In this document: positions 20,760 through 47,326 of the stretch, in pieces
Layout: each line of letters begins with the position of its first letter
How positions within the stretch are numbered: the stretch's first letter is position 1
Assembly: GCA_934725855.1 (NCBI GenBank)
Contig: CAKVCL010000004.1
Location: 103,934 to 167,933 of the forward strand
DNA length: 64,000 nt
Source of the DNA: an uncultured Cellulosilyticum sp.
GTDB taxonomy: Bacteria; Bacillota; Clostridia; Lachnospirales; Cellulosilyticaceae
Reading direction: 5' to 3'
Program-made: the position numbers and the translations under genes
Notes under the pieces: model-generated
Databases searched by the model: none
What the model saw: only the letters and a program-made list of their open reading frames with translations
What the model was told of the DNA's origin: nothing

Positions 20760-20841
20760 TGCGGGCGAAGGGAGTCGAACCCTTACACCTCGCGGCGCTA
20801 GATCCTAAGTCTAGTGCGTCTGCCAATTCCGCCACGCCCGC
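20760..20841 (-). tRNA. tRNA-Leu (anticodon UAG)
   Basis: An 82-base tRNA with a long variable arm as expected for leucine. The acceptor stem GCGGGCG/CGCCCGC closes, the anticodon loop is CTTAGGA, and GGTTCGACTCC forms the T arm. It reads CUN codons. The 3' CCA is not encoded. It stands alone, downstream of nothing recognisable and upstream of a terminator. Confidence 0.97.
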
Positions 20842-20944: not shown

Positions 20945-23479
20945 CTAATTACTAACTTCTTTCTTATTTGCTTTACTGTCTTGTTTATTATCTTGTTTAT
21001 TATCTTCCTTGTTGTTTTCTTTGTTTTCCTTATCTTCTTGGTTATCCTTTTTGTTATCTTTATCTTCTCGCTCTTCTTTGCTTTCGGCGACTTCTTTAAA
21101 ATTTTCTTCAATGAGCTTATTAACCTTGTCTTCATTCATCTTAAAATCAGGCATAAGCTTCTTAATCACTTCTGGATTTACAGTTTGAGTAGAAAAGGTT
21201 TGCTGGAGCTTGTGGTTTTGCTGATAGAAGTAAACGCTTAAACCGCCTCCTATTATGGCACCTGTAAGAATAATCATACCAAACACTAGTGCCAAATGTT
21301 TACTTAGCCATTTTATGCCTGCTGGTTTTAATGCATCGATTACTTTTTCACCTAATGCTTTTGTTTTGGCTTGCATCCCTAATTTATTTTTAATCATTTC
21401 TTTATCAGGCTTCTCACCTTTTTGCTTACAAGTCATGAAAAACTGTACGACTTCTTTATCAAACTTTTCCTTATCTATGTACATTTCTTGACCTTTAGCC
21501 CAAATGATAAAATCCAGTAAGGTTTCTTTATTGACTTGATTTAAATAAACTAGTACTTTTTTTAGATTCAATTTATAATCATAGCTACCTGAACTTCTTT
21601 CTAAAAAGGCATACACCAGCATATAAAAATCTTCTTTTTTAACTTGTTTCTGGTTGAATTTCTTAATAAGCTCTTGAACCTTTGTATTAACCTGTATTTT
21701 TCTTGGGCTCATATAACTTAAATCGGTTTTTAAGTTTTGGTAATCTTTAATCACTTCATAGTTTGATAATGCATAGCTTCTACTAAACTTTAAATTACAA
21801 AGCGTTTGTTCATTTTCTATATCACTTAATGCCATGCGTTCTAAGAAATAATGTTCCCCACCTTCTAATAGGTTGGTATATAATTCGCTTTTATGGCGTG
21901 CACACCATTTTTGAAGCTTGTCTAAAAAGCTTAAAAGACCTTTGGCATTTTTCATGCAGGTGCAAAATGTATCATAGACAAGCTGAACATAATAGTGGTC
22001 TCTTACTAAGACAGACTCAATCTCTTCAAATTTTGCCATTTGCTCAATCAGCTCTTCTAATGTTTTTACTTCCTTAAAACTCTCATTAATGAGATAATAA
22101 GCCACTTGTTTCCTAAGTTCATCACTTTGGAAAATCTCTTCAAATAAAGAAACATACGCTTTAGGATAAACATGTGCCTTCTCTAATACCATAGACACAT
22201 AAGCATAATCTTTCTTTCGACTTGATAAGGTTAGAAGCTGCAGTACAATCTGAATGCAGTGTGCTTCTTGCTCCCTATTTTTACAAAACCCTAATTTAAA
22301 ATCTAATATCGTTTTAACTTCTTCTCTTTCTGGAAGTTTTCCCGCATTGATTTCTTCTTTAATTAAATCAATGACATAATCTAAAATATCAAATAGATCT
22401 TTTCTGACATCGTCTCCAACATCACTTTGTAAATAAGCTAATATTTGTTTAAGAAGACCTTTTCTAATTTTAGGTTCTGATAAATCAAATGGTTTTCCTG
22501 ATTTTAAGGATAAATGCAGTTCAAATAAAACCATTACTCTACTATAAAACTCTATGTTCCATTCACTTTTGTCCTTAAGTGTTTTGCCTAATGCGCTTGC
22601 CCAATAGTTGATTTTCTCCCAAGCTGTCTTGATTCTTGAATAAATGCCAGCGAGCTTGATAAAGGGTTCTCCTTCTATATCTCCCTCTACATTCATAAAT
22701 TTCTTATTTACAAAATCAAAAATATAGTCTTTGCTTTTGCCATCATATCGAAGTGTATTCTTATCTAAAAAGGTAATTTGAATATTCTTCTTGGGTTCTG
22801 CTTTACTGGCATAAGTTGATACGCCTAAGCCTTCTGTAATATCCCATGGCAAAACGGTATAAAGGTGATATAAAAGCGCTTTTGCCATTTCCCCTAGTTC
22901 TTCAATCTCCACATTTAATGCAATAAAGATTTTCTTTTTAGAATAAGCTGCGCTAAATGCTTCAAAGATTAATTTATGAAAAATCTCATCGGTGATCTCT
23001 AGCTTATTAAATAACTTTTCTCGGTCTAAAAAGTAAGGTTTATTCCCATCATAAGGAATAGCTGCTAGGGTAGGGAGTTCTCTTCCTTGTTCTATATCAT
23101 AGCCTCTTGCAAAGCTGGTAATTCCAAAAAGCTTTTCGGGTTCTTTGATATAGCGTCTTTTCTCGGTTTCGGATAAAACATAATTGTGCATAAAGAATGT
23201 TGAACGAAGCCCTGTGAAATCTTTTGCTTTATAAATGGCTTGTCCTACTATTAATTCCCCAGAGCCACTTGGAATAATCATAAAGTTAGGTGGGTATTTG
23301 GCTTCATCGGTTTCCCCTATTTTATGAAGTTCACTTGGAATATCATAGCTACAAATAGGGTGCAAATTTTTCTTGATAAAGTCTAATTTCAGCATAGGTG
23401 ACTTCGCAACGGTATCATAACCATCTGTTTGAGTAAACAAACCCCCACGTTCCCTCGTATAATATTGTTGCTCTATCAT
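20945..23479 (-). CDS. GTPase-associated protein (GAP1-N1-like) with C-terminal membrane anchor
   Basis: An 844-residue protein, last gene of the operon. The first ~110 residues (IEQQYYTRERGGLF, GYDTVAKSPML, FMIIPSGSGELIVGQAIY, FTGLRSTFFMHNYVLSE) match, from memory, the GAP1-N1 domain (GTPase-associated protein 1, N-terminal). A long helical middle follows, a single membrane helix at about 728-752, and a tail of about 45 residues almost wholly D, E, K, N and Q. It starts one base after the stop of the GTPase gene, so the two are translated together and are likely partners. Orientation of the tail relative to the membrane is not certain. The biochemical role of GAP1 proteins is unproven; activation or scaffolding of the GTPase is inference. 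Confidence 0.7.
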   Translation of the reverse strand: MIEQQYYTRERGGLFTQTDGYDTVAKSPMLKLDFIKKNLHPICSYDIPSELHKIGETDEAKYPPNFMIIPSGSGELIVGQAIYKAKDFTGLRSTFFMHNYVLSETEKRRYIKEPEKLFGITSFARGYDIEQGRELPTLAAIPYDGNKPYFLDREKLFNKLEITDEIFHKLIFEAFSAAYSKKKIFIALNVEIEELGEMAKALLYHLYTVLPWDITEGLGVSTYASKAEPKKNIQITFLDKNTLRYDGKSKDYIFDFVNKKFMNVEGDIEGEPFIKLAGIYSRIKTAWEKINYWASALGKTLKDKSEWNIEFYSRVMVLFELHLSLKSGKPFDLSEPKIRKGLLKQILAYLQSDVGDDVRKDLFDILDYVIDLIKEEINAGKLPEREEVKTILDFKLGFCKNREQEAHCIQIVLQLLTLSSRKKDYAYVSMVLEKAHVYPKAYVSLFEEIFQSDELRKQVAYYLINESFKEVKTLEELIEQMAKFEEIESVLVRDHYYVQLVYDTFCTCMKNAKGLLSFLDKLQKWCARHKSELYTNLLEGGEHYFLERMALSDIENEQTLCNLKFSRSYALSNYEVIKDYQNLKTDLSYMSPRKIQVNTKVQELIKKFNQKQVKKEDFYMLVYAFLERSSGSYDYKLNLKKVLVYLNQVNKETLLDFIIWAKGQEMYIDKEKFDKEVVQFFMTCKQKGEKPDKEMIKNKLGMQAKTKALGEKVIDALKPAGIKWLSKHLALVFGMIILTGAIIGGGLSVYFYQQNHKLQQTFSTQTVNPEVIKKLMPDFKMNEDKVNKLIEENFKEVAESKEEREDKDNKKDNQEDKENKENNKEDNKQDNKQDSKANKKEVSN

Positions 23480-23480
23480 C

Positions 23481-24749
23481 TTAATTCACCTTCTCACCCT
23501 TAATATAACCTAACTTATAAAGCAGCCATAAAAATGGCTCATCGACACGCACCGGTTCTATTACCCCTTCTAACCTGCCATCTACTGGATTTTGTCCAAG
23601 TGAGGATACCGCAAAATAACCCACATTATTAAAATGAACTTCTATCGCATCTAAGAAGGCTAGGTCGACTTGCTCAATGAATCGTTTCACTTCCCCATTG
23701 ATATTTTCATATTCATTCAGGTTAAATCGTCCTTTATGGACATAATTTTGAAATACATTACTGTTTTCTTTAAGATAAGCGTCATCTTCATAAGCCAATT
23801 TTTCTAACATATCGCTTTTGGTCACAACGACCGCTGTTGGTATAGAAGTTCTGCCATCTTCACGTCGCCCTATAAAGTTCTCCCCTAATGAAACGACCAC
23901 ATCTCTTGCTTCTTGGTATTGAGAAGTGAAATCTCCACCATTATTGCCTTGACTTAGGAAAATCTTATGACGTATCGTTGCTAATTGAAGTGGGTCTACA
24001 AGGAACAATATGCCCTCTGCATTTTTAATATGATTTGCATAAAGTTCTAGATAGTCTTCTTCCACCATGCCTTCTCCTGCTACGTCAAAAAAGACTAGGC
24101 TAAGAGGTGCTTTATTGGTATCTTTAAATTTAAATTGAAAAATAAAAGGTTCTTGTTTTCTTTCCTTTTGTGTGGATTCAATCAAAATATTTTGCACAAA
24201 AAGAGGGTCTTGATACTGAGCGCGAAATCTTCTACTGGTTTCACTGCTAATAGGCAGGCAAGCTGCCTCAAAATTATGCGCTGTAACGGTTTCTAGGGTA
24301 TGTATAAGCGATGCCATGTAAACAGACTTTCCAACTTGAGAAGCTCCGATAATCGCAATGATATTGCTTGGCGCACGCCCCGCTGAGTAAGGCAATTCAT
24401 TATGGCAAAATGGACATAGTCTTTTCTTGGATTCAATATTGTATTTATCTCTAATACTCATTAATACCCCATCCGTATAAGACTTGCTTTCTTCTGGAAA
24501 AAGCTTAGGATAAATAATCGCTTCCATCTCTTCACTGCCTTCAAGTCCAAACTTTTCAAGGTAGTCATTCAGTTTCTTATCTTCTTGCAAACAATACTCT
24601 TCGTCTTCTTCCTTATAATGAGCTGCTCTAAACACAACCGAATCCGTTTCAAATTTATTAAAACAATGTGGACATACAATTGGAAATTTCTTAACCACAG
24701 GTTCTTCTTCCTGCTTAAAACCTGCTAATAAATTTTTGAAAAATGACAT
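23481..24749 (-). CDS. Zinc-ribbon P-loop GTPase (double-GTPase / DO-GTP2-like)
   Basis: A 422-residue protein. Two CxxC pairs, C26/C29 (CPHCFNKF) and C112/C115 (CPFCHNEL), look like a split zinc ribbon. A GTPase domain follows: P-loop GASQVGKS at 135-142, switch II DVAGEG at 222-227, and TKSD at 310-313 as the guanine-specificity motif. It fits the DO-GTP2-type GTPases, which occur beside GAP1 proteins; that name is from memory. Unlike Ras-type proteins it has a large insert between P-loop and switch II. No membrane segment: it is cytosolic and probably recruited to the membrane by its GAP1-like neighbour, whose start follows its stop by one base. Confidence 0.82.
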   Translation of the reverse strand: MSFFKNLLAGFKQEEEPVVKKFPIVCPHCFNKFETDSVVFRAAHYKEEDEEYCLQEDKKLNDYLEKFGLEGSEEMEAIIYPKLFPEESKSYTDGVLMSIRDKYNIESKKRLCPFCHNELPYSAGRAPSNIIAIIGASQVGKSVYMASLIHTLETVTAHNFEAACLPISSETSRRFRAQYQDPLFVQNILIESTQKERKQEPFIFQFKFKDTNKAPLSLVFFDVAGEGMVEEDYLELYANHIKNAEGILFLVDPLQLATIRHKIFLSQGNNGGDFTSQYQEARDVVVSLGENFIGRREDGRTSIPTAVVVTKSDMLEKLAYEDDAYLKENSNVFQNYVHKGRFNLNEYENINGEVKRFIEQVDLAFLDAIEVHFNNVGYFAVSSLGQNPVDGRLEGVIEPVRVDEPFLWLLYKLGYIKGEKVN

Positions 24750-24764
24750 CGTGTTTCTCCTTCC

Positions 24765-24888
24765 CTAATCTTTACTCTTCCACTCATCCTTTTTTATTAA
24801 CCTTTACTCGGCACTAACTTTTAATTGTTAACCTTTACTCGGCTGTCAGTTCTAATTATTAATCTTTTAGGCACTAACTTCTAAGTCG
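24765..24888 (-). repeat. Four tandem ~31-bp repeats inside the operon
   Basis: The only sizeable gap between the GTPase gene and the next gene upstream consists of four copies of a unit, starting near 24766, 24798, 24829 and 24860 (spacing 32, 31, 31). On the transcribed strand the core reads GCCGAGTAAAGGTTAA; the two central copies keep it exactly and the outer two are degenerate. The spacing is three helical turns. It may be a protein-binding array in the mRNA or DNA, or simple slippage expansion. Confidence 0.7.
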
Positions 24889-24890
24889 CT

Positions 24891-25523
24891 TTAGTTCTTA
24901 ACAATTCGATAAGCTTCTTTGTAAGGCACCTTATCCGTTAAATAAATCCTTACAAATTCATCCTTATCTACTTCTATTTCTGGCATTTTATTATCACCTG
25001 CTAGAAAATCAGATATGAATTGAAACTGCATGCCGTCCTCTAACCCTACTGGTATATTGCCTTTCTTCTTTACATAGCATAAATATTCTTTAGGCACCCC
25101 AACTTCACAAAATACCTGCATTTGAACAAGCTTCCTTGAACTAAAAAGCTTCTTTTTTTCTTTGATTTCATAACGAATCTCTATTCTTTGGCTGATAACT
25201 TCTATTTCATTACACCCATCTTCAAAGCGCACCAAATACGTTTCAAACCCATCTTGTATATAGGGGCATAGAATGTATTTGCTCATAGCACTGCCTGCAT
25301 TTTGGTCAATAAAGCCGCCAAATGAACTATATTCGCTTTTTGTATATTTACGATAAGGCTTCTCCCAATCAATTTCTTCTTTATCTAATACATTTTGCTT
25401 ATAAATATAGAGGTTTTCTAAAGCATTAGGCCACTTAAAATTTAATACCACTTGCCCATCCTTTATATGTGCTTTTATATCTGAAATTTTAGGGTCTATG
25501 CCATCGTACCATCTTATTTCCAT
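24891..25523 (-). CDS. Small beta-rich protein of the GTPase/tubulin-like operon, unknown family
   Basis: A 210-residue soluble protein without signal peptide or membrane helix. Alternating hydrophobic/polar strands suggest two consecutive beta-sandwich units (about 1-100 and 105-205): for example GQVVLNFKWP, YLVRFEDGCNEIEVIS, and KLVQMQVFCEVGVPKEYLCYV. I do not recognise the family. AAGGAGG lies before its ATG. Its place between a membrane VWA protein and the GTPase suggests an adaptor role, which is inference. Confidence 0.7.
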   Translation of the reverse strand: MEIRWYDGIDPKISDIKAHIKDGQVVLNFKWPNALENLYIYKQNVLDKEEIDWEKPYRKYTKSEYSSFGGFIDQNAGSAMSKYILCPYIQDGFETYLVRFEDGCNEIEVISQRIEIRYEIKEKKKLFSSRKLVQMQVFCEVGVPKEYLCYVKKKGNIPVGLEDGMQFQFISDFLAGDNKMPEIEVDKDEFVRIYLTDKVPYKEAYRIVKN

Positions 25524-25641
25524 AAGTTTTCCACCTCCTTATTTATACTTAGTTATTGATATCCATTACTTGCTATATGTTATTGATACTGATAAACAAA
25601 TACTTTTCTAAGTAAATTTGTAATGCTGTACTGCAATGATG

Positions 25642-26850
25642 TTATACGGTTCGGTTACCATGATAATGGTCTTTAAAAATAACACACCATGTAAAACTCA
25701 TTAAACCCACGCCTAAACATACCCAGTAAGTCAGCCTCACTAAAATGCCCATCCAGCCATTAATAAATAACTTTTCTGCTAATAAGCTCCCTGTAAGTCC
25801 ACCTATGAAAGCGCCAATTAGCATGCCTTTAACTAAATACTTGTTGTCAAACATAATCCCTAATGCAAGAGCAAATAAAAGGGCTATGATAAGTAAAAAT
25901 AAAACTCTAAGGCCTTTATGTAATGAAGAGCCTGCATATGCTCCTGTTCTTGCTGTAATAATAGTTCCTTTTTCTTCATTGTATCGTATCTTTCCAAATA
26001 CCTCATTAAGCATGGTGGTGTCTGAAGTGCTATAATAGGTCCCACCTGTAAGGGTAGCTATTTCTTGTAAATATGTTTCTGCTGAAGGGTCGGTATACAT
26101 CATCCCAATCGTATAAATAGGAATATTGTGATTAACATATTCTGCTACCAGTCCAGCAATATCTGCATCTGAACCATCGGTAGGTGCCCCATCAGATATT
26201 AGAATTAAACTGGCTCCTTTGTTCTCACCTTCAATCAGTCTGTAAGCCTCATGAACCACATTGGCAATGCCTGTTTGTCCATCATTTTTAATATTTAGGT
26301 TCTGAATCTGGGTTTTAAAGGCTTCTTTTTCCTCTTTACTTTGAACACTTGTAAACTCAAGGGCTAATGAGGCATTTTCATTAAAGGTCATAAGCGCTAC
26401 TTTTTTATCACCCTTCAAGTTATCAATAAACTGACTAATCGCCTTAAATCTTTCTGCCTCTGGGTCTGTAGCATCCATACTGCTTGAACGGTCTACCGCT
26501 ATCACAATGTTATCTATCGTTTTTGGCTTATTGATTTCTAGTCCATAGATGACTTGAAAAATGCCTGCTGTGAGTCCTATCATCACTAAAGTCACTGGTA
26601 CAAATAGTTTAAGAGAGGTTTTAAAGTACATCTCCTTCCACCTATAGCCGATTAATTGGGGTGAAACTCTTTGTGAGGCTATAATCATGATACAAAAACA
26701 CATTGCCCCTATTCCAAAATATAAGCCCACTCGTAAAAAATCAGACCAATTTTCTCCTAGCGTTAAAATGCCTTCTCCTACTGCACAAGCTAGAATGGCT
26801 CCTATGATACTAAATAAGACTGCTATTCCACTAAAGCGTCTTGTTCCCAT
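25642..26850 (-). CDS. Membrane VWA-domain protein with intact MIDAS
   Basis: A 402-residue protein: three N-terminal membrane helices (about 7-30, 38-58, 82-103), a von Willebrand A domain (about 113-290) and three C-terminal helices (about 310-390). The metal-binding MIDAS is complete: DRSSS at 120-124, the threonine in DGQTGIANV and the aspartate in LISDGAPTDGSD. Such domains bind a partner protein through Mg2+. With an odd number of helices before it, the VWA domain's side of the membrane depends on N-terminal topology and cannot be fixed here. It resembles BatA/BatB-type proteins of the MoxR-VWA systems in layout, but no MoxR ATPase is nearby; the nucleotide partners here are a GTPase and a tubulin-like protein. 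Confidence 0.85.
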   Translation of the reverse strand: MGTRRFSGIAVLFSIIGAILACAVGEGILTLGENWSDFLRVGLYFGIGAMCFCIMIIASQRVSPQLIGYRWKEMYFKTSLKLFVPVTLVMIGLTAGIFQVIYGLEINKPKTIDNIVIAVDRSSSMDATDPEAERFKAISQFIDNLKGDKKVALMTFNENASLALEFTSVQSKEEKEAFKTQIQNLNIKNDGQTGIANVVHEAYRLIEGENKGASLILISDGAPTDGSDADIAGLVAEYVNHNIPIYTIGMMYTDPSAETYLQEIATLTGGTYYSTSDTTMLNEVFGKIRYNEEKGTIITARTGAYAGSSLHKGLRVLFLLIIALLFALALGIMFDNKYLVKGMLIGAFIGGLTGSLLAEKLFINGWMGILVRLTYWVCLGVGLMSFTWCVIFKDHYHGNRTV

Positions 26851-26868
26851 CTTCTTTCAACCCTTTCT

Positions 26869-29157
26869 TTATGAAAACTTATAATCCTTTTCTTTATACG
26901 CCTCATAATAACGCTCGGCAGACCTTGTAAAGACTAAGTCACTTAGTTTAAATCCACCCATAAGTTGTAATTTTTCAATCACACTTTTTCTCTTATCATT
27001 AATGGTTCCAATTTTATAATTCCTATTGCTTTGGTCCCTCTTATATGCATATTCAATAAACTCACTTTGTCTGTTTCCAAAAAAGTATTTTTCCACATAA
27101 CGATGTGCAGCAAGTGCTGTATCTATGTGCACACAAGGCTTTGAATTTTCTTCTAAGCTTTCATAAAGGAGTTCATATAATTCACTTTTAGCAGCTACAT
27201 CTGTTTCTTCATACTCAACGAGCATATTGGCTCTTGCCAAAAGCTCTTCTTCAAATGATACATTAAAATACTTTTCTTCCTTTAAAAATTCTTCCTCAGC
27301 AATTCTACATACCTTTTGGATAATCTGTTCATCGCTTTCATTTAACACTTTATCAGAAGTTCCCATATACTTATCATCTTGCAGGAAATGTTCTCCCTTT
27401 GCTTTTTTAAGCGTTTCTAATCTTTCTGATACTACTCTTTCATAATACTCTTTAACATTTTGAACCAAGTATTCTTCCTCATAGCGATTGGCTTCATTAA
27501 TCATTTCCATAAAGAAGTTTCCTACATTTTCAAGCTTAATCAGTTCATTTTTTAATACTTTATAAAAATTCTCTATTTCTTCTTGTAGGGATTGTAAAAG
27601 CCTTAGCTTTAAACTTTCTCTTTCATAGTGATATCTTGCTTTATAAACTTCTTCAATCAGATAATCCTTTACTTTTTGAACATACTTTTTATCAAAGAGT
27701 CCAAAATTGCCCCCTATACATTCCCCTACTAGCTTATTTTCCTTTTCTTGTGCTTCTAGTTCATATTGTTTCATTTGATAAAGATATTTATCTTTTTGTC
27801 TTTCAAGCTCACTATAGCTTTCTGATTTTAAAAGCTCTCCTAATGCAAATGGGCCATAGTCTGGATGGCGTACCACTGCACTTAAAAGCCTTTCTTTAAA
27901 TTTTTCTTTCTCTATGTAATCCGTCATCTTTCTACTAGCTGCTTTTATAAAGTTTGCCTCAAAAAAATCCTTAGCTAAATTACCATACAGCATCGTTTCG
28001 GCTTCGCTAAATGCCTGATTTTTTAAGTCTTTAAAGCTTACCCCATTAGAAATGAGGCTTCTAATCTCTTCTACTTGCTGCTCACTTGGCATGAAATTAT
28101 TGATAAGCGCCTCCAGCTGTCTTTCACTTAAGCCGATCTGGTCTAAAAGCACTTTATAATCATGCCCCTCATAGCTTAGTGTTTTTTCATATGCTTTAAA
28201 TAAATGATAGGCAACCGTTAAGTATATGCCTTGTCCTGGCTTTCTTACCTTAGCTAGACGCGCTGTACAATATCGGTTTTCCATACTTTCTCTAATATTG
28301 TTTATAAACGTGTTATAGTTGTACTGCTCTCTGGCTTCTTCTAACTCTACTGCTTTTTGCTCTCTGTTTTTAAGCAGATTAACTGCCACAATACTTTCAT
28401 AATGTGACTTCTTGGCGTTATTTACCATCTGTCCATTTTCCTTTTTATCAGAAAGTAAATATACCAGATGAAATAAAGGTCCATGATACTCCGTCATGAG
28501 CTTCATATCTTCATCCACTAATTCAACCTGCTTAGCGTAATGATACTGGTCACTTTCATACTCATCCAATTCTTTAAACAAAGCAAAGCTAAGTGCCTTA
28601 TTAAGTGGCACTGCATCTTCGCCGCTTTCTTCTAAAAGCACAAATAAATCTGTAAAAACCTGCTTAAAGCTCTGCTCCAGCTTACTTTTAATTAAAACCA
28701 CCACATCACTTAAAAGGACATTCGCTTTATCACTAGCTGCTGTAATCACTGACACATGGATTTGTTCCCAGTAGCTAAACACTTTATTTTTTTCTAAAAT
28801 ACATTGTGATACCTTACTAACTTCTTCATTAAGTGCTTGTAAAAAGCTATCTTCTTCTATGTGCTTACTAACCGCTCCTCTGTCCTCTTCTTCTACCTTT
28901 AAGTCGATGTGAAATTCTTCATTTCCAATCGCTTCTTTATTACTTCCAATCGATAAGTAAATGATGCCCTCACTATTACTCATGCTTCTTTCAACTGCTC
29001 GTTTAATTTCTGTGACACCTTCACTTACTTTATCACCTAGTAACACAAAAAGCATGGGGGCTTTCATGCGAATACCATTACTTTTTAGTGCGTCTTCATC
29101 ATATTTCAGTGCAAAATGCTCTGCTCTTTGAAATATTTCATTTCTTATATTCTCCAC
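26869..29157 (-). CDS. Large helical protein of the GTPase/tubulin-like operon, unknown family
   Basis: A 762-residue protein with no signal peptide or membrane helix. The first ~120 residues look alpha/beta (APMLFVLLGDKVSEGVTEIK, then GIIYLSIGS), and the rest is long, charged helices rich in E, K and L, probably partly coiled-coil. I do not recognise the family. The start is GTG 29157 (VENIRNEIFQ), ten bases after GAGGGGG. It follows the tubulin-like gene by 78 bases. A filament-binding or scaffold role would fit its shape and context, but this is inference. Confidence 0.75.
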   Translation of the reverse strand: MENIRNEIFQRAEHFALKYDEDALKSNGIRMKAPMLFVLLGDKVSEGVTEIKRAVERSMSNSEGIIYLSIGSNKEAIGNEEFHIDLKVEEEDRGAVSKHIEEDSFLQALNEEVSKVSQCILEKNKVFSYWEQIHVSVITAASDKANVLLSDVVVLIKSKLEQSFKQVFTDLFVLLEESGEDAVPLNKALSFALFKELDEYESDQYHYAKQVELVDEDMKLMTEYHGPLFHLVYLLSDKKENGQMVNNAKKSHYESIVAVNLLKNREQKAVELEEAREQYNYNTFINNIRESMENRYCTARLAKVRKPGQGIYLTVAYHLFKAYEKTLSYEGHDYKVLLDQIGLSERQLEALINNFMPSEQQVEEIRSLISNGVSFKDLKNQAFSEAETMLYGNLAKDFFEANFIKAASRKMTDYIEKEKFKERLLSAVVRHPDYGPFALGELLKSESYSELERQKDKYLYQMKQYELEAQEKENKLVGECIGGNFGLFDKKYVQKVKDYLIEEVYKARYHYERESLKLRLLQSLQEEIENFYKVLKNELIKLENVGNFFMEMINEANRYEEEYLVQNVKEYYERVVSERLETLKKAKGEHFLQDDKYMGTSDKVLNESDEQIIQKVCRIAEEEFLKEEKYFNVSFEEELLARANMLVEYEETDVAAKSELYELLYESLEENSKPCVHIDTALAAHRYVEKYFFGNRQSEFIEYAYKRDQSNRNYKIGTINDKRKSVIEKLQLMGGFKLSDLVFTRSAERYYEAYKEKDYKFS

Positions 29158-29235
29158 AATCTATATGCCCCCTCTGCCTTATTTAAATCTTAGCACTTAC
29201 ATCCTCGCTTTTATAAATGAATTTATGGCATTTTT

Positions 29236-32200
29236 CTAGCTTAATTTCTTTTTAAGTTCCTTGGTATAACTTAAAATGCTCTTGTAAAAATCATAGATTT
29301 CTCTACCATCTACCACTTCATGGACTTCATCTTCAATTTCTTCACGTGCATTCCCATACACTTCTAGAATGTGGTCTAAGCTTGCCATAAGCTCTGAAAC
29401 ATCTTCACTTTGTGTCAGTCTTCTCACACGTTTTTCAGACTTTCTCAAAATGACTTCTTTAAGTTTACCCTTTAAAGCTGTAAAACGCTTGTATAATTCA
29501 AATTCTGTATACTTATTAACATCCATCACATTAAGAAGTGGGTCATATAGTTCTTCGTCTTCATCTTTATCATAAAGATATAAAGCCCCTTTCTTATAAA
29601 TCGTGTGGGTGTAAATGGCTTTAACAAAGTCTTCAATTTGCTTCTCGGCTTCTTTAGCGGTTTCAATAACCTTCTTTAATTCTTCAATATAAGCTTCTAG
29701 TTCCTCGTATTTCTTGATTTCTTCCTTTAAAATTTGTTTTTGAGCTGGATAGCGCATAATGCCAGCAAAAGCTAATTCCTCGGTATAGCTGTTCATAATA
29801 GAAGAAACCTGTTTTTCGCCTGTTAAACCATTTTGAACTTGGTTTTCAAAGTCTGCAAGGGCTTTTTTAATCTGAGTAAAGTTTGGTCTTGCAAGGTCAA
29901 GCTCATAGCTTGCGATTTGCACTTTAAGATCCTCATTTTTCACTTGCACAAGCACATATTGGTTATTGAGTCCTGAGTCTTCTCTTTTCTCAATAATATG
30001 ATAACGCATGCCTTTTTCAAAGAGAGTTTTTCCTTCTTTCATCAGCTCTGCTATACGTTCATTGGTATAAGTATCTCCCCATGCTTCCTTTGGAATAGGG
30101 GAAGGTAAATTTACCCAGCTTTTTTTATCTGTCATGACAAGGTGGCGACCCACACCTTCTCTTGTATTAATCGTTTCTTCGTAGAGTTTTTCATAAGCTT
30201 TCAGTGGACCATAAGCATATAATGGCACCCCATTACGTGTGGTTACCCAGAAAATACGATTGGTCAGCTTGCTTTGTCTAAGTGAAAACTTAGCAGCTGA
30301 GTTAGGGTATTTTTCTTGGAAATTTTTAAGTCCCTTATAAATACTTGGGGTATTCGCTGGTACAGATACCATCGCATAGTATGGGAAGTTAAATTCTGAA
30401 CCATTGGTTAAGTAGAATAATGGCACCGCATCCCTAGAAAGCTTAGCTGCAATTTGCTTTTCTACAAGCTCAGAAAGGGATTCTTCATCCCCATATTTCA
30501 TCGCTAAAAATTCTTCCATACTCTTAGAAATTAAATCGGAAAATTTATCGGTAATAAAGTCTGAAATGGAAGAAATAATATCAATCTCAGCTTCATTAAT
30601 CCACTTGTCCGCTTCATCTAAAAGCATCTTAGTAAACTCAGATACTAAAATATTGGCATCATAACCATCTACCATTTTATCAATATAGCTTGCCACATCT
30701 TTTACACTGACCACATTCCAGTGATAAGTGGCATTACCTTTTTCGTCTAATGACTCATTGGCTTCGATTAAAATCTTGCCATCCTTTTCAAAAATCCCAT
30801 TTAACGTATTTAAAATTTCAGTAAAGACCGCATAGAACTTATTGTTTCTTTCAATGAGCAGCATTCTTAAGTCTTCATAAGCTGCAATCATCTTTGTAAA
30901 CTTCTCTACATCGGCTCTTAAGAAATACTCAGTAATCTTGCTTTCAATATACTCATTTTTCTTTTTCTCTTTTGAAATAAAGGCAGACCTTGCATCTTGC
31001 ATCTTCTCAATAGAGTTATCGATTTGATTTTGAATTTGCTGTGGAAGCTTTGCAAGTTGTTCTTTTAAGGTCACGATATTCGCTTCAATCATCTTAACTA
31101 AGCAAAAGCCTTCTTTATTCACTAGCAGATTAGAGGCATAAACTGGGCCAAACTCCGGATTCGTAAATAACCTTTTTACTTCCTCAAATACATTTTCCTT
31201 GAGTTCATTAGGCAGTTGGTTCGTTGCATTGTTAAAGGCTTCTCTTGCCTTCATTAAAAAGTTATTTTCAAGTTCCGCATCCATATTAACCGCTTGTGTT
31301 TTAATAACATTATTGTAAGCATAAGCTTCTCTAGATTCAAAGCCAGGGAGTGCTTCGGGTACATTTTGCTCAAAACGTCTACTTACGCTATCAATATCCA
31401 ATCCAAGTCTTCTAGCTGTCTCTCCCACTTGCTCTTCCGTTGGAATGACTTTAAACATTCCATTAATATGTTTAAACACGCGAAATGCCATATAAGTGGT
31501 CATTTCTTCAATGGGTAAAATAGAAGCAGATGCCCCGATAATATTGTATTTATAGTTAGCTGGCAAAGTGGCTTCACGCATTTGTTTGATATTGGTTTCA
31601 ATGTTGCTAATATAATCGTGGATAGCAAATTCTTCACCAGATTGTTTGTCTTCACTTGCCATAAAGTTTGTAATGTTTTCAGCGGTTACATTCATGCAGT
31701 AGTCATAAGCATTATGTACGGTCTTGCCTTCTGTGTCAGTAGCAGATATCAAGTGGCAAAGGTCAAATGGTGGCACTTGGGTATCCACACTAAGACGTGT
31801 GCCATAATCTTGTTTAAAGTGCTCGCCACGTTCTTCAACATTCATCCAATAATCTAGTTCCTTTAAAGCAGCATAACCATTTTTCTTAATATATTCTTGG
31901 GTATGAATACTAAGAGATGGATTGGCAAGGTTGACATCTGGTGTAAACAAATACCCCATAATATCTGAACGGTCAATGCCATTTCCACCTGCTTCAAGGT
32001 CAAGAATCGCTCTTGTAATATACGCTATATCTAAAAAGCAACCACTTCCTGTTCCCCCTGAAAGTCCTGAAAGGAGGAAAATATAAATCTTACGGTCTGT
32101 TCCTTTTTGAAGCTCTTTAATTTTCTTTTGAATGGCATCCACGACTTGATTAATTTTTGTAAAAAGTAATAAACGTCCCCCTTGTCTTACCCCTGATGCC

Positions 32201-32622
32201 CCATTAATCCCATCTGCAATATGTAATTCGGGTGAAAGCCAAGAAGAAATGCTTGGATGCAGTCTGCCACGATTTTGAAGCATACTGCCTATTCCTGCTT
32301 CTGAAAGCAATACTAATTCATTAAGCGGGTCTAAGCCTACCCCTTTATATTTTTTATTTTTGTCTTGTTCATTGGTTTCAAAGGCTAAGAAATCAACATT
32401 AGCTGGTTTATCCATACGTTTTTTAGTCATTGGGTCTACTGGCAGATTAAAACGCCTATTGATTTGATATTTTAAACGTAAAAGCGCATCAATACCTGTC
32501 CCTCCAAGACCAATCACTAACATCGGATTATCAATAGTGTCTACTCTGATTTTCTTACTAACAATGCCTCCGCCTTGCTGGATATCTAATTGCTGAATAT
32601 GATCTCTAATAATCGGTTTCAT
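29236..32622 (-). CDS. Tubulin/FtsZ-like GTPase (Tubulin_2 family)
   Basis: An 1128-residue protein, the largest in the window. The N-terminal ~300 residues have the tubulin/FtsZ GTP-binding signature: GLGGTG at 38-43 in the first loop, GGTGSG at 189-194 (the tubulin T4 loop), a beta-strand ending MGYLFTPDV, and NGYAALKELDYWMN, which occupies the place of the tubulin H7 helix. These match the Tubulin_2 family rather than FtsZ, TubZ or tubulin. The remaining ~800 residues are mostly helical with no recognised domain. Whether it polymerises cannot be told: the catalytic T7 loop is not obvious. It follows the secreted VWA gene by nine bases and starts after AGGAGGAACAT. Confidence 0.88.
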   Translation of the reverse strand: MKPIIRDHIQQLDIQQGGGIVSKKIRVDTIDNPMLVIGLGGTGIDALLRLKYQINRRFNLPVDPMTKKRMDKPANVDFLAFETNEQDKNKKYKGVGLDPLNELVLLSEAGIGSMLQNRGRLHPSISSWLSPELHIADGINGASGVRQGGRLLLFTKINQVVDAIQKKIKELQKGTDRKIYIFLLSGLSGGTGSGCFLDIAYITRAILDLEAGGNGIDRSDIMGYLFTPDVNLANPSLSIHTQEYIKKNGYAALKELDYWMNVEERGEHFKQDYGTRLSVDTQVPPFDLCHLISATDTEGKTVHNAYDYCMNVTAENITNFMASEDKQSGEEFAIHDYISNIETNIKQMREATLPANYKYNIIGASASILPIEEMTTYMAFRVFKHINGMFKVIPTEEQVGETARRLGLDIDSVSRRFEQNVPEALPGFESREAYAYNNVIKTQAVNMDAELENNFLMKAREAFNNATNQLPNELKENVFEEVKRLFTNPEFGPVYASNLLVNKEGFCLVKMIEANIVTLKEQLAKLPQQIQNQIDNSIEKMQDARSAFISKEKKKNEYIESKITEYFLRADVEKFTKMIAAYEDLRMLLIERNNKFYAVFTEILNTLNGIFEKDGKILIEANESLDEKGNATYHWNVVSVKDVASYIDKMVDGYDANILVSEFTKMLLDEADKWINEAEIDIISSISDFITDKFSDLISKSMEEFLAMKYGDEESLSELVEKQIAAKLSRDAVPLFYLTNGSEFNFPYYAMVSVPANTPSIYKGLKNFQEKYPNSAAKFSLRQSKLTNRIFWVTTRNGVPLYAYGPLKAYEKLYEETINTREGVGRHLVMTDKKSWVNLPSPIPKEAWGDTYTNERIAELMKEGKTLFEKGMRYHIIEKREDSGLNNQYVLVQVKNEDLKVQIASYELDLARPNFTQIKKALADFENQVQNGLTGEKQVSSIMNSYTEELAFAGIMRYPAQKQILKEEIKKYEELEAYIEELKKVIETAKEAEKQIEDFVKAIYTHTIYKKGALYLYDKDEDEELYDPLLNVMDVNKYTEFELYKRFTALKGKLKEVILRKSEKRVRRLTQSEDVSELMASLDHILEVYGNAREEIEDEVHEVVDGREIYDFYKSILSYTKELKKKLS

Positions 32623-32631
32623 ATGTTCCTC

Positions 32632-34401
32632 CTATAATAAGTATTCTATTTGTACAGTTTGACCGCAATCTGCCATGTTAATCGTAAAGCGGTCACCTTT
32701 TTTTAGTTCAATGCCGCCTTCTGCTTTCACAGCGCGACCTGATTTTTCTATGGCATAATTGGAGTGATTGATTAGTAGCACTTTATCCCCTGCTTCCGCT
32801 TTAAAAATAATCTGCTCCGCTGCTTTAAGCTCTGGGGCAAATTGTAAAAGCGCATGTAAACTCACTTTTCCTTGAAATACGCTAAGCTTTTTATATTGTG
32901 GTGGTGTAAGTTTTCCTGTGGTATTATCTCTAAGTTCCACCACCATTTGACCCACTAATGGGCGACGTGCTGCTTGAAGTTTTTTAAGAGCAAATAATAT
33001 GGCTGCTAAAACAAGTACGCCTATTCCTAATCCTACCCATACTAAAGGAGATATTGAATTTGGCTTTTCTTCCTCATTTTTATTCGTAGTGTTACTTGCA
33101 CCGCCTACTGCCTTTCCTACTTGAATGGTTACGCTGCTGCTCATCCTTTGATAACTTGCGTCTTCTACCAATACAGAAATTTCAAATTCGCCTTCGTCTT
33201 TTAAGTCATAACTTCCTTCAAAACGCTGACCATTGACCTTCATATCTACTCTTGTTTCAGTCCCTGACTTCATCTCTTTAACAATAAGTGTCCCTTTGCC
33301 ATTTTGATAAAGCGCATCGTCGCTTATTGGACTGCCTTGTACACTTAAATAGGCACTCACCTCCAAGGCATCCCCTTTATTAAAGCTAGTGGCTATTTGG
33401 TCTAGCATTACTTCAATATCATAATTGTAAACAAGGTCTATATTAATTTGATCTCCTTGTGTTCCTTTCACATAAAGTTTCCAATCTCCAGCCATTGGCT
33501 TTGAAAGCTTTAGTAAATGATAACTTTGTGATTCATGTAAACTCACATTGCTAGAAGGTATAGAAATGTCTTGTCCATTAGGATCAGCTAGCTTAAATTC
33601 TACTGCCCCACTTGCAGTAGCTGAAATATTGGCTTCTAGTACATTGTCATTTGGAATATTAATGGCTACTTCTTCAAAATCTCCTGTTCCCTGAAACGGC
33701 CCTAAATTTTGAACCTTCAAATTAGAGTGTGCCGCAAAAATCTGTGTTAAGATATCAGGTAATTCATTTGGATCTTTGGTTGCAAAAGCTATCGCGCCTG
33801 TTTCATCAGAGATATTTTTAAGGTAAGCTTCATTAAGCTTTCCATTATCATTAAGTCCAATTGTATAAATAGGGTATCCTGCTCCTTTGGCTTCATCCAA
33901 AATCTGAGCAAGCTTCGCATCTATTTGCTGATAGTTTCGCCCTTTTACACCTGCTATCGCATTATTTCCATCCGTAAAAACAATAATAAGTGGCTTGTTC
34001 CCAAGGGAAGTATCTCTTTGATTTTCCATCTCTACGGCTTTAGAAAGGCCTGATGTAATATCGGTATACTCTAAGTCTCTAGATAAACCATCTACAAACG
34101 TTTTAATCTTTTCTTTATCTTCCTGAGTGTTTACTGCCACCATCGGATAAGTCGCATCCACTTCGGAGCCATAGGTCACAAGACCCACTTGATTGCCTGT
34201 GGCTGCCATCATATCGATAAATAACTTAACGCCTTCAAGTCCTAATTTATTAGGATCGGTTTCCTTCATTGAACCACTCGCATCAATCACTAGTATCGCA
34301 TCTAATTGCCCATTATCGGTAGCTGCAAGTAGACTCATTGGTATACTTATTAGTGCTATTAATAATGCTAATAAACTCATCTTTTTTAATATAGGTTTCA
34401 T
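32632..34401 (-). CDS. Secreted, membrane-anchored VWA protein with FHA-like cytoplasmic tail
   Basis: A 589-residue protein. Signal peptide or N-terminal helix (residues 7-27), VWA domain (about 33-230) with MIDAS DASGS at 40-44 and FTDGNN further on, two beta-sandwich-like regions, a membrane helix at about 450-472, and a C-terminal domain of 117 residues. That last domain is all beta (KVLLINHSNYAI, GGIELKKGDRFTINM) and resembles a forkhead-associated fold without confirmed phosphothreonine-binding residues. The VWA domain is outside and the tail inside. Start is ATG 34401, five bases after AAGGAGG; it lies 89 bases inside the upstream gene. Confidence 0.85.
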   Translation of the reverse strand: MKPILKKMSLLALLIALISIPMSLLAATDNGQLDAILVIDASGSMKETDPNKLGLEGVKLFIDMMAATGNQVGLVTYGSEVDATYPMVAVNTQEDKEKIKTFVDGLSRDLEYTDITSGLSKAVEMENQRDTSLGNKPLIIVFTDGNNAIAGVKGRNYQQIDAKLAQILDEAKGAGYPIYTIGLNDNGKLNEAYLKNISDETGAIAFATKDPNELPDILTQIFAAHSNLKVQNLGPFQGTGDFEEVAINIPNDNVLEANISATASGAVEFKLADPNGQDISIPSSNVSLHESQSYHLLKLSKPMAGDWKLYVKGTQGDQINIDLVYNYDIEVMLDQIATSFNKGDALEVSAYLSVQGSPISDDALYQNGKGTLIVKEMKSGTETRVDMKVNGQRFEGSYDLKDEGEFEISVLVEDASYQRMSSSVTIQVGKAVGGASNTTNKNEEEKPNSISPLVWVGLGIGVLVLAAILFALKKLQAARRPLVGQMVVELRDNTTGKLTPPQYKKLSVFQGKVSLHALLQFAPELKAAEQIIFKAEAGDKVLLINHSNYAIEKSGRAVKAEGGIELKKGDRFTINMADCGQTVQIEYLL

Positions 34402-36058
34402 TGTGACCTCCTTCATAATCATTTTGGTTTATTTCTTCTAAACTTACCATTTGAGCTTCAAGTTCCTGTTTGATATAGCCTTCACCATTCCAAATATATG
34501 TATCCGATATCTCTCCTCTTCGATTAATTGTAATGCCATTTATATCAGGCGTTACAATGACACTTATGCCCTGCCTAGCAAAGATATTTTGAATTTCTGT
34601 TTCTCCAACTCGAAGCACATTAATATCTTGTCCATCTTCATTAGAATAAACTATGGCAAGTAACTCTCCACTAGCCATCATTTGGATGGTTTGACCATTA
34701 TTTAATGTACCACCATCCTGTGATGCACCTAGCCGATCTAGATAAGTGCCTTTTAAAGAACAAGTTAGTCTTGTTTCTTGTCCTAATTCTGAATAAGAAT
34801 TGAATCGATAGATTTCAAGTTCTTGAGTCTCTTTATTAATTGCAGCTAAATATTTTTCTGCTCCTAACGCGCCACTGCCCACCTCATAAAACGCATAATT
34901 GCCTATTTGATTTTCAATCAAAAGTACTGGATCATTAAAGTACTTTTGACTATCAATGGCTTGTATTTCCTGGGAAAAGTCTTTTAAGCTTCCCATCGTT
35001 TGATACCAGCTAATTGCTTCATCATAGTACTGGGCATCTACCAAAACTTGTATCTCAACTTCTTTTTGATTAATATATTGGCTTACAAGTTCTTCAATTG
35101 TTTCATCATAATAGTAAGGATTATTTGCTTTTTTATAATCTTGTATCATTTCTACAAATGTATTCATTTGAAGTTTTGTCTCATCAAAGAAGTTTTGAAA
35201 CGCTATGCGGGTTTCCTCTCCTCCTTCTGTGAGTGTTCTTAAAACCGTTTTAGGACAATTTCTTAGCTCATTCAACCTTTGTGCATCTGCTAGCGGTATG
35301 CTGCTCGCTATTTTATCTCTTATGTACGATTTAATCTTTTCTGTAAGCCACTCGGTTTCATAGCCATAATGCCTATTGGTTTCATAAATTTCATCAAACG
35401 CTAGCATCTGATCTTTTAATGCTGCTTCTTTGCTCGTAATCTTTTTAAAGAGCCTTATATCACATGCTTCAAAAAGCTTTGCAATAACTGTCTTTTTATC
35501 CGATGCAAAACAGGTATCTGGTACTTCGTTTATATGTTCTTTCGCCCACAAATACCCGTCTTTAGCATTTTGAAGGATGTACTGCATATTCCCTTTAAAT
35601 TGTACCCATGCTTTTTGGCTTGCCTCAGTAATGGGATAAATTTTCTCAAAATACTCTGTTTGATAAGCTTCTAGTTTGCTTAAATCTAAAGCATGATAGG
35701 TAGATAAAGTTGTCTGAAATAATTCATAATCCACCTGTTCCTTACTTAAGCACAAATTATTGTAGATTTCTTGAAGGGTTTCATTATATTCCGTAATCCA
35801 GCTTAATGTGTCTAGTCTATTTTCTACTTTTCTCTGCTTGTACTCATAATGTGTTAACTCAGTAGCTTCTGTTAGTTTTTCTTCAGCTTCTATCCATTTT
35901 CCCTCATTAAATAATTTAAATCCTGATTTAACCAGTGAAATTTTTTCATACATATAGTAACCTTTATATAAACCAGCTATACACTCAATCGCTAACACAC
36001 CTACTACAATCGTTTCAAGCCACTGACTTCTCTTATATCGATCAATTCTTTTCTTCAT
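34313..36058 (-). CDS. Membrane-anchored protein of unknown family
   Basis: A 581-residue protein with one N-terminal membrane helix (about 13-32) after a basic start (KKRIDRYKR), so the bulk is probably outside the membrane. Residues 40-400 look helical, with a repeat-like NEGKWIEAEEKLTEA start (TPR-like); the last 180 residues are beta-rich (GNYAFYEVGSGALGAEKYLA, DINGITINRRGEISD). I do not recognise the family. Its last 29 codons overlap the following VWA gene in another frame, unusual for so long an overlap; a C-terminal frameshift that extended it is possible. Confidence 0.75.
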   Translation of the reverse strand: MKKRIDRYKRSQWLETIVVGVLAIECIAGLYKGYYMYEKISLVKSGFKLFNEGKWIEAEEKLTEATELTHYEYKQRKVENRLDTLSWITEYNETLQEIYNNLCLSKEQVDYELFQTTLSTYHALDLSKLEAYQTEYFEKIYPITEASQKAWVQFKGNMQYILQNAKDGYLWAKEHINEVPDTCFASDKKTVIAKLFEACDIRLFKKITSKEAALKDQMLAFDEIYETNRHYGYETEWLTEKIKSYIRDKIASSIPLADAQRLNELRNCPKTVLRTLTEGGEETRIAFQNFFDETKLQMNTFVEMIQDYKKANNPYYYDETIEELVSQYINQKEVEIQVLVDAQYYDEAISWYQTMGSLKDFSQEIQAIDSQKYFNDPVLLIENQIGNYAFYEVGSGALGAEKYLAAINKETQELEIYRFNSYSELGQETRLTCSLKGTYLDRLGASQDGGTLNNGQTIQMMASGELLAIVYSNEDGQDINVLRVGETEIQNIFARQGISVIVTPDINGITINRRGEISDTYIWNGEGYIKQELEAQMVSLEEINQNDYEGGHNETYIKKDEFISIINSTNKYTNESTCSYR

Positions 36059-36070
36059 CCTCTGCCTCCT

Positions 36071-37003
36071 CTAATGGCTCAAATAACCTTTGAAGGCCTC
36101 ATCTTCTCCTACCACTTCTTTTACTTCCTGTAATAGCTCCCTTCTAACACGCTCATCCTTTATCCCTTTACTCATCTTACACAATCTAAGAAGTCTTTCT
36201 CTTGAAAAGAACTTAATATACCCTTTCATTTCTGCTGCATACTTATTTAATAAAAACTTAGATTTTAAAGCTCCTTCTAAAACACTCGCCAATATTCTAT
36301 CCCCTTTGTGTTTCATTAAAACCTCTTCCTTATAAGTTAAAATATAAGTCAGTGTGGCATCGTCTACTAAATCCTTCTTGATTTTGGATACTTCGTAAAT
36401 GTAATCCACTAAGTATGCATTATATTCTTGCTGCAACATTTCCTTTAACTCTAAAGGCATATCACTTCTTAAGCTAAAGCTTCTAAGGCAAACCAGCTTA
36501 TAGGTGCGCACCTCATCATTATCTATAAGCTTTGCTAAATATCTAAATCGGTCATACGCCTCTACAGGATGACCTTTTTCTATATCTTGTATAGCAATAT
36601 TCATTTGTTTGCTAAGATCTGCTTTAATCTTATCTTTATTTGCCATTAGATGCTCTCTCATTTCATTTAAAATCAGCTCATTTTTAAACTTATAAAAAAT
36701 ATAACCCGTAGCGCCTGTCCCTATTAATGAAAAAAGTATGGCTATAAAAATGTCTTTTGCATCTTTAGCCAAAATAAATAATGCTACGCAAATTGCTATA
36801 TTCATCAGCTCTCTAATGATAAAATGCTTTTTGACTGTATAAGAAGCCACTGTATCTATACTTATTTCTTCCTCCTCATTGCAATTTACACAGGCTTTCT
36901 GACCTAGATTATACGTTCCACAATGCTTGCAATAAAACAAATAATCTATGTTATGAGCTAGTACAGGCATTTCATTAAAATGAACAATTAATTTATTTTC
37001 CAT
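36071..37003 (-). CDS. Zinc-ribbon membrane protein of the GTPase/tubulin-like operon
   Basis: A 310-residue protein. A zinc ribbon sits at the N-terminus with C25, C28, C38 and C41 (YCKHCGTYNLGQKACVNC). Two membrane helices follow at about 64-79 and 84-104, then a cytosolic helical domain of about 200 residues. The ribbon and the helical part are on the same, probably cytosolic, side. I do not recognise the family. The gene starts inside the last codons of the 52-residue gene (11-base overlap), so they are coupled, and it is followed by the next gene after 12 bases. Confidence 0.75.
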   Translation of the reverse strand: MENKLIVHFNEMPVLAHNIDYLFYCKHCGTYNLGQKACVNCNEEEEISIDTVASYTVKKHFIIRELMNIAICVALFILAKDAKDIFIAILFSLIGTGATGYIFYKFKNELILNEMREHLMANKDKIKADLSKQMNIAIQDIEKGHPVEAYDRFRYLAKLIDNDEVRTYKLVCLRSFSLRSDMPLELKEMLQQEYNAYLVDYIYEVSKIKKDLVDDATLTYILTYKEEVLMKHKGDRILASVLEGALKSKFLLNKYAAEMKGYIKFFSRERLLRLCKMSKGIKDERVRRELLQEVKEVVGEDEAFKGYLSH

Positions 37004-37151
37004 TTGTAGACTCCTTTAATGCCTCTATCAATTCATCACTTATTTCTTTTTTAGTTTTTCCTTGTTTTTTACATCGTAATCCAATCATTAAATATCGCAC
37101 CACACCTATAACACCTATTCCACCAATTATCAACATGAATGCCCTCGACAT
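36993..37151 (-). CDS. 52-residue single-helix membrane peptide, first gene of the operon
   Basis: ATG 37151 follows GAGGTG with four bases between and opens a 52-codon frame that stops at 36993, overlapping the start of the zinc-ribbon gene by 11 bases. Residues 4-25 (AFMLIIGGIGVIGVVRYLMI) form one membrane helix. A basic stretch RCKKQGKTKK follows, then an acidic end. It lies right after the proposed promoter. Its size, overlap and position suggest a genuine first gene, perhaps a membrane adaptor; it has no known family. Confidence 0.65.
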   Translation of the reverse strand: MSRAFMLIIGGIGVIGVVRYLMIGLRCKKQGKTKKEISDELIEALKESTNGK

Positions 37152-38765: not shown

Positions 38766-38781
38766 CTATATACCTCATTTC

Positions 38782-42157: not shown

Positions 42158-42245
42158 ATGTATCCTCTATTCATAGTTAGCCTTTATTTTATATATCTTA
42201 CTATATAAAGGCATTACTTACCACCTGCTATTTTAAATATTCACT

Positions 42246-43130
42246 TTATTCTTTTGTAGAACCTGCAGTAATTCCATAAATCAAATGTTTTTGTAATGCA
42301 ATATATAAGATAGTAATTGGTACAGCTACTAATACCGCTCCAGCTGCAAATTGAGTATACTGATTATTTGCATCTGAACTAATCAAATCATATAACCCTA
42401 CAGCCAATGTCTTCTTTGAATCTGAACTAATTAATAAACGTGGTAATACATAATCCATCCAAGGCGCCATAAAGGTACTTACAGCTAAAAATGTAATCAT
42501 TGGAAAAGCTAATGGAATGATAATCTTTCTAAATATCTGTAGTCTGGTTGCCCCGTCAATCATCGCTGCTTCATCTAGACTCATAGGAATACCATTTAAG
42601 TACCCTTTCATTAGCCAGACATTATATGGAATCTGTCCAGCAATATAAGTTAAAGCTAATCCATATAAATTATCTAGTAACCCAAAGTTTAAAAACAGAA
42701 TATAAATTGCTGTCATTGCCATAAAGGATGGAAACATTTGTAACACCATAATTCCCATCAAACTTACTTTTTTACCTTTAAATTTAAAGCGTGAATATAC
42801 ATAAGCTGTTAAGGTGGTAATCAGTACAGAACAAACCATATTAACTATAGCAATTTTAAGTGTATTTCCATACCAAAGAATAAAATCTGTATTAATAAAT
42901 AATTTTCTATAATTATTTAAAGTAGGATGTTTAGGTATGATCGTACTAGTAGCTAATGAACTAGAATTATCAAACGAAGTACCAACAATCCATAACACTG
43001 GAACTAGTACAATAATAGCAACTGCTATGATTTCAATATACATCAGTGCTGTTACAATGTTATTTTTTATTTTATGCCTTTTATTTTCTTTAATGGCAGA
43101 CTGTGTATTTAATGTCTCACTACTTACCAT
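42246..43130 (-). CDS. CUT1 sugar ABC transporter permease, MalG type
   Basis: A 294-residue inner-membrane permease with six helices and the EAA loop DEAAMIDGATRLQIFRKIII, the contact point for the ATPase. It pairs with the MalF-type permease upstream. The start is ATG 43130, with GGAGG six bases upstream and one base after the malF-type stop; a longer frame from 43151 would overlap that gene. No ATPase gene lies nearby, so a shared MsmX-type ATPase is probable. The substrate is likely an oligosaccharide. Confidence 0.93.
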   Translation of the reverse strand: MVSSETLNTQSAIKENKRHKIKNNIVTALMYIEIIAVAIIVLVPVLWIVGTSFDNSSSLATSTIIPKHPTLNNYRKLFINTDFILWYGNTLKIAIVNMVCSVLITTLTAYVYSRFKFKGKKVSLMGIMVLQMFPSFMAMTAIYILFLNFGLLDNLYGLALTYIAGQIPYNVWLMKGYLNGIPMSLDEAAMIDGATRLQIFRKIIIPLAFPMITFLAVSTFMAPWMDYVLPRLLISSDSKKTLAVGLYDLISSDANNQYTQFAAGAVLVAVPITILYIALQKHLIYGITAGSTKE

Positions 43131-43131
43131 A

Positions 43132-47316: not shown

Positions 47317-47326
47317 TTTCTAAGAG

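Follow-up and report, generated by a model that had tools for sequence, protein, structure and literature searches.

A conserved ten-gene operon joining a tubulin, a tubulin relative without its nucleotide loop, a DO-GTPase/GAP1 pair and vWA proteins in an uncultured Cellulosilyticum

What might a bacterium do with two tubulin relatives, a GTPase and two von Willebrand factor A (vWA) proteins encoded in one operon? The question is raised by a locus on the minus strand (37151 to 20945) of a 64,000-nucleotide stretch of DNA from an uncultured Cellulosilyticum sp. (GenBank GCA_934725855.1, contig CAKVCL010000004.1, positions 103,934 to 167,933), here called the window, whose ten genes are named A to J in the order of transcription. 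The locus is genuine and well conserved, an operon of a kind already predicted, and its conservation and profile matches are far beyond chance. The product of gene E is a tubulin with the GTP-binding motifs, and that of gene F is a tubulin relative which has kept the fold, according to its predicted structure, and whose sequence has lost the nucleotide loop. The best explanation, to which we would give a little under an even chance, is an envelope-coupled, GTP-controlled tubulin scaffold.

Gene content and layout

Gene A, 36993..37151, minus strand: 52-aa peptide with a single transmembrane (TM) segment (58 aa with the start at 37169); open reading frame (ORF), TM scan.
Gene B, 36071..37003, minus strand: 310 aa, zinc ribbon CKHC...CVNC and two TM helices; sequence, TM scan.
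Gene C, 34313..36058, minus strand: 581-aa single-TM protein; sequence, TM scan.
Gene D, 32632..34422, minus strand: 596-aa secreted vWA protein with C-terminal TM segment and cytosolic tail; PF00092 5.6e-17, TM scan.
Gene E, 29236..32622, minus strand: 1128-aa Tubulin_2/FtsZl1 protein, T1 GLGGTG, T4 GGTGSG; PF13809 6e-83.
Gene F, 26869..29157, minus strand: 762-aa pseudo-tubulin, T4 loop replaced, helical insertion of about 350 residues in the predicted fold.
Gene G, 25642..26850, minus strand: 402-aa vWA protein with three TM segments on either side of the vWA domain; PF00092 2.1e-18, TM scan.
Gene H, 24891..25523, minus strand: 210 aa with no TM segment, conserved YVKK-type motif; alignment A3, TM scan.
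Gene I, 23481..24749, minus strand: 422-aa zinc-ribbon DO-GTPase with GASQVGKS, DVAGEG and TKSD; PF19993 3.6e-10, PF19975 1.7e-7.
Gene J, 20945..23479, minus strand: 844-aa GAP1-N2/GAP1-M protein, TM segment 729-747, polar C-terminal tail; PF20013 4e-41, PF20014 2.4e-11.

The ten ORFs lie on one strand, as claimed in a preliminary description of the window, and their junctions are mostly tight: A overlaps B and C overlaps D, the distances B-C, D-E, F-G and I-J are 12, 9, 18 and 1 bases, and E-F, G-H and H-I are separated by 78, 118 and 141 bases, six of the nine junctions being overlaps or gaps of at most 18 bases. The H-I gap holds three copies of a 31-base tandem repeat (window 24794-24884), and the DNA of the tail of J also contains tandem repeats. 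For gene A the start at 37151 looks better than the mechanical one at 37169, with a ribosome-site-like AGGTG upstream (judged by eye). A candidate promoter element, TATAAT at 37187-37182, looks sigma-A-like by eye; promoter-like sites are no commoner than in shuffles (50 found, 59.7 expected).

The proposal of a single membrane-linked, GTP-using set is supported by the Pfam folds and the conserved neighbours. Profiles found the predicted tubulin and GTPase folds and the GAP1-like partner with the E-values listed. At least five membrane-anchored products had been suggested, and a simple hydropathy scan predicts membrane segments in six (A-D, G and J). Two vWA proteins with an intact metal ion-dependent adhesion site (MIDAS) had also been described; both domains were found, and intactness holds for the DxSxS part, which is intact by eye in the two window proteins and kept in 43/43 relatives of D and 44/44 of G (ORFs over 300 aa). 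As to tubulins, E had been recognised and the second Tubulin_2 relative, F, had been missed.

The tubulin pair E and F

Protein E matches Tubulin_2 with 279.5 bits (curated cut-off 27). Its alignment (A2, 53 rows with its own sequence) has GLGGTG (T1) and GGTG[S/G]G (T4) in every row, the strict GGTGSG in 50, and in the fetched loci the motif is found in 46 of the 47 E ORFs longer than 500 aa, the exception (L003) being cut by the contig end. For the alignments, one set of relatives supplied 48 of the 120 listed among 615 found and another supplied all of 39 listed proteins except P0032 (63% coverage). One listed relative of E bears the name Paenibacillus polymyxa, and P0129, a Paenibacillus-like E labelled as coming from an unrelated enterobacterium and probably a contaminated record, was not used. 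An acidic residue, D336, is invariant (53/53) and starts a helix which was aligned by eye with the catalytic T7-H8 region of FtsZ. The structure model predicts, with moderate confidence, helical stretches at 447-731 and 959-1127. Like the FtsZl1 family, E has a coiled coil and a helical C-terminus, both as predicted features, and vWA and GTPase neighbours. The nearest loci, both Cellulosilyticum-like, encode E proteins with 87% (L001) and 86% (L002) identity.

Protein F also matches Tubulin_2, with 33 bits against the cut-off of 27 (5.1e-8), and the profiles of E and F align over 618 columns (E=1e-7, 94% probability, 18% identity). The T4 motif GGTG[S/T/G]G occurs in none of the 43 rows of its alignment (A1, own sequence included) and in none of the 45 F ORFs longer than 500 aa in the fetched loci. 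In its place is a conserved [S/D]DPxNVLLPD-like stretch, with D143 in 39/43 and N146 in 37/43 rows, and column 283, which hhalign pairs with D336 of E, is acidic in 2/43. Foldseek found a tubulin fold in the predicted structure of F, whose model has a helical insertion of about 350 residues in the C-terminal half of the fold, with tubulin-like elements following the coiled coil. F diverges much faster than E: its identity to the proteins of two Paenibacillus loci, L004 and L010, is 28-29%, and that of E is 54%.

E and an F-like gene also occur together where no profile match to the rest of the operon was found. In L008 (9938-14384) and L009 (4275-8723) E adjoins a short F-like protein of 381-383 aa, and the other eight profiles were unmatched nearby; the F-like match in L009 is weak (26 bits), and the scanned neighbours in L008 are housekeeping-type genes. 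This pair is possibly the minimal E-F unit.

The GTPase, its GAP1 partner and the envelope-side genes

Both the DO-GTPase2 profile (PF19993) and PF19975 are over cut-off in I, and the GAP1-N2 and GAP1-M domains of J are encoded downstream of this DO-GTPase, an arrangement expected of the published GAP1-N2 systems, whose Firmicutes theme of two tubulins and two vWA proteins is likewise present. In G, three TM segments precede the vWA domain and three follow it, so that the domain would be outside the cell if the N-terminus is inside. The bulk of C is probably also outside; a bacterial SH3 domain (SH3_3) is found in 3 of 14 members of the C family (best 1.1e-11) and gave no match in the window's own C. 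Homologues of A are present in loci L001, L002 and L005. Protein H, with no significant Pfam match and no PDB profile match, occupies the place of the FNIII-repeat protein of Kaur et al. Pfam matched a YtkA domain neither in D nor in the relative of D from L004. The PDB was searched with the sequences of E, J and I and with the profiles of H, C and J, and nothing useful came of it.

Conservation of gene order

GAP1-N2 was found in 23/59 Paenibacillaceae, 26/200 Bacilli and 10/196 Clostridia genomes (nine of these ten over cut-off), as a single match in every positive genome. The Paenibacillaceae and Bacilli samples overlap and together give 38 positive genomes. It had been set beforehand that the single-system reading would need the genes to be neighbours elsewhere; in all 38 genomes the order D-E-F-G-H-I-J is fixed, with B beside D on the opposite strand (divergent). 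Gene C was seen in 23 of the 38 loci, the fetched stretch possibly cutting it off in some. All genes are on one strand in L001 (genome G001, ABCDEFGHIJ) and L002 (ABDEFGHIJ), and the Clostridia locus L006 carries DEFGHIJ. Among the Clostridia GAP1-N2 matches the full set was shown only in G001. Eight of the other nine genomes were examined (L049-L056; G344 was left out): in five none of the ten profiles matched, and L051, L055 and L056 carry a distant GAP1 (225-288 bits) on contigs too short to show its partner genes, the sequence ending 0.7-1.7 kb upstream. L031 has split ORFs for B and G, L035 for C and L010 for J; those of L031 (G at 12270-13045, B at 3356-4296) are two ORFs each, representing frameshifts or assembly errors.

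Inheritance and mobility

Trees were made for 29 of 30 genomes; the assembly of G006 has a broken rpoB frame, and this genome was left out. The E and rpoB trees share 15 of 26 splits. Of the 16 rpoB splits with strong support, E strongly contradicts a single one, which concerns the close relatives G014 and G046. F shares 16/26 splits with rpoB (one strong conflict) and the GTPase I 15/26 (none). The trees of E, F and I have no strongly supported conflict with one another, and no other pair of trees has as many splits in common as E and F (20/26). The rank correlation of rpoB and E distances is 0.83 over the 29 genomes and 0.29 within the 23 Paenibacillaceae, where 11/20 splits are common. An N6-methylase control from the family sample, where 30 genomes were positive (up to four matches each) and the 18 with the best scores were used, shared 0/15 splits, contradicted 7/8 strong ones and gave a correlation of 0.02; this control mixes paralogous subtypes, which worsens its congruence.

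Searched with E, 50,697 phage records gave no match, 72,556 plasmid records gave three remote matches (28.5-30.1% identity over a quarter of the query), and a two-pattern scan found one remote viral contig (24% identity); the GTPase I has two remote plasmid matches. The block thus seems to have spread mainly by descent, with losses, and nothing points to carriage by mobile elements. A tRNA-Leu(TAG) gene (window 20760-20841, minus strand) lies about 100 bases downstream of J, and this tRNA follows the operon in 4/4 Cellulosilyticum-like loci (the window, L001, L002 and L003). A mobile island is not favoured, since E has no match among the phage records and the tRNA is on the downstream side. 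Flanking neighbours are common to at most 5 of the 38 loci, on flanks too short for a judgement of synteny. In the window itself, 37437-46008 carries apparently unrelated genes for solute-binding proteins, a histidine kinase, an AraC-type regulator and an ABC permease, and 47326-52048 carries a tRNA-Gly and a 5S rRNA followed by GH26 and GH3 glycosidase genes.

Possible function

What the data show of the scaffold reading is the protein families, the motifs, the gene order, the missing GTP loop of F and the insertion as a prediction; polymerisation, the pairing of E and F, the switch logic and sensing are the parts that we infer. In this scheme E, a GTP-binding tubulin of the FtsZl1 family, would assemble on the cytoplasmic side of the membrane. 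Its paralogue F would serve as cap, nucleator or fixed subunit, giving an asymmetric and stable assembly; having kept the fold without the nucleotide loop, it could dock at an interface of E without hydrolysing. A long helical arm in F, and probably in E too, would project from the polymer towards partners or membrane. The DO-GTPase I would be the switch and the membrane-anchored GAP1 protein J its partner, and the extracellular vWA proteins D and G with the wall-side C might set the switch on detecting ligands that are metal-dependent or belong to the wall. A transmembrane-signalled cytoskeleton in the full sense, made of two tubulin paralogues, one active and one free of nucleotide, each with a long arm inserted in its fold, and gated from outside the cell by vWA sensors via the DO-GTPase and GAP1, is a more doubtful proposition. 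We know of no tubulin or FtsZ system of such transmembrane-signalled, paired-paralogue design.

Several observations weigh against the scaffold. The T7 assignment in E comes from an alignment by eye, and F keeps another acid in the paired region (E277, 32/43). The model of E is poor (predicted local distance difference test score 71), and because of this the inserted arm is seen in F alone. By hhalign, E pairs with FtsZ in the T4 region only and F gives nothing of note; the C-terminal parts of E and F, when cut out, are not aligned by profile (E 0.095). The Foldseek scores of F are modest (best E 6.8e-4, TM score about 0.4 by target length, root mean square deviation 6-9). We found no biochemistry of E or F in the literature searched, and F could act apart from E. 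If so, F may be a separate adaptor or chaperone of tubulin descent forming no polymer with E, which we consider unlikely and which would be compatible with either of the two roles discussed next. The faster divergence of F and the short F-like proteins standing beside E where the other eight profiles are unmatched fit such an adaptor, but the F-like gene stays with E where other partners are missing (L008), and the E and F trees agree with each other best.

A conflict (anti-phage) role as proposed by Kaur et al. 2020, with the GTPase-GAP1 pair as threshold and the tubulins as containment superstructure, is possible, though we lean away from it. The family and components are the same as theirs (PMC7159879, accessible parts), occurrence is patchy in all three samples, and E agrees incompletely with rpoB within the Paenibacillaceae. 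The defence function suggested in the preliminary description is nevertheless unsupported, since PADLOC (2023) gave no better match than a weak P-loop (E 0.019, the sole match, from a library limited to components described by then), Pfam recognised no effector domain in the ten products, and E has no phage and only remote plasmid matches. There is one copy per positive genome, against up to four for the methylase control, and the tree of E follows rpoB far better than does that of the control. This mostly vertical pattern is more what a physiological system would give than what a rapidly moving defence module would; as vertically inherited defence systems exist, these points are not decisive. 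A developmental envelope system of spore-forming Firmicutes, for sporulation or multicellularity, seems improbable to us. Spo0A is present in 26/26 carriers and 142/174 non-carriers of the Bacilli sample (Fisher p=0.008) and in a further 7/7 carriers, one of them common to that sample, and Kaur et al. link GAP1-N2 with a multicellular habit (PMC7159879, accessible parts). However, ancestry and genome size confound this test, whose result is significant only without correction for ancestry and is given little weight here, 142 of the 168 Spo0A-bearing Bacilli of the sample have no operon, and the candidate promoter looks sigma-A-like by eye.

The membrane-linked scaffold receives some support from the literature. 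The only experiment on a Tubulin_2 gene found in the literature searched concerns a different gene set, in Synechocystis, where interruption of sll0445 hampered phototactic motility and altered the fluorescence of photosystem II, and where Sll0445 was found complexed with proteins of pilus assembly and of the photosystems (PMC9880817). A DO-GTPase is predicted to act in membrane-related stresses (PMC11237479, on phage shock proteins). These results, as far as the accessible parts of both papers go, lean to a membrane role. No experiment on the present gene set was found in the literature searched, most subscription papers being outside the search.

Comparison with known systems

F has 5-12% identity to CetZ, TubZ, BtubA/B and alpha/beta-tubulin among the matches listed, and differs from them in having no nucleotide loop and an insertion of about 350 residues. 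To our knowledge, none of these tubulins comes with a vWA/GAP1 operon.

The preliminary description knew of no described function for the full set; its implication that the set is undescribed is not supported, since the same components are found in Kaur et al. 2020 (eLife, PMC7159879), and operons of FtsZl1, vWA and GTPase genes in Makarova and Koonin 2010 (Biol Direct, PMC2875224), who established the FtsZl1 family and its vWA and GTPase neighbourhood and suggested a role in membrane remodelling. The Firmicutes GAP1-N2 systems of Kaur et al., for which a conflict role was proposed, share with the window the DO-GTPase, GAP1-N2 with its polar tail, two coiled-coil tubulin-domain proteins and two vWA proteins, one of them multi-TM. 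The accessible text puts the coiled coil behind the tubulin domain, whereas in the model of F it is internal; neither tubulin is called degenerate, B and C are unnamed, and FNIII and YtkA domains are named, neither of which Pfam found in the window set. FtsZl1 proteins share with E the N-terminal tubulin domain, coiled coil, helical C-terminus and vWA/GTPase neighbours; in the accessible parts of PMC2875224 no T6-H7 or tubulin C-terminal domain could be recognised in them, whereas the F model has tubulin-like elements after the coiled coil. In Synechocystis Sll0445-Sll0447 a Tubulin_2 protein likewise has membrane-linked partners, but these are FtsA-like and DivIC-like, and GAP1, DO-GTPase and vWA are not named in the accessible parts of PMC9880817.

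Tubulin_2/FtsZl1 operons with vWA and GTPase genes have thus been predicted since 2010 (PMC2875224). Compared with the accessible parts of the published accounts, three things appear to be new: that F has lost its GTP loop, that the coiled coil is internal in its model, and that the gene order is fixed, as shown by counts, and gives little indication of mobility. The fixed eight-gene block (B and D-J), with its active/pseudo tubulin pair and testable inserted arm, is a defined set for expression and imaging, and it allows a direct test between the published ideas of membrane remodelling and phage conflict.

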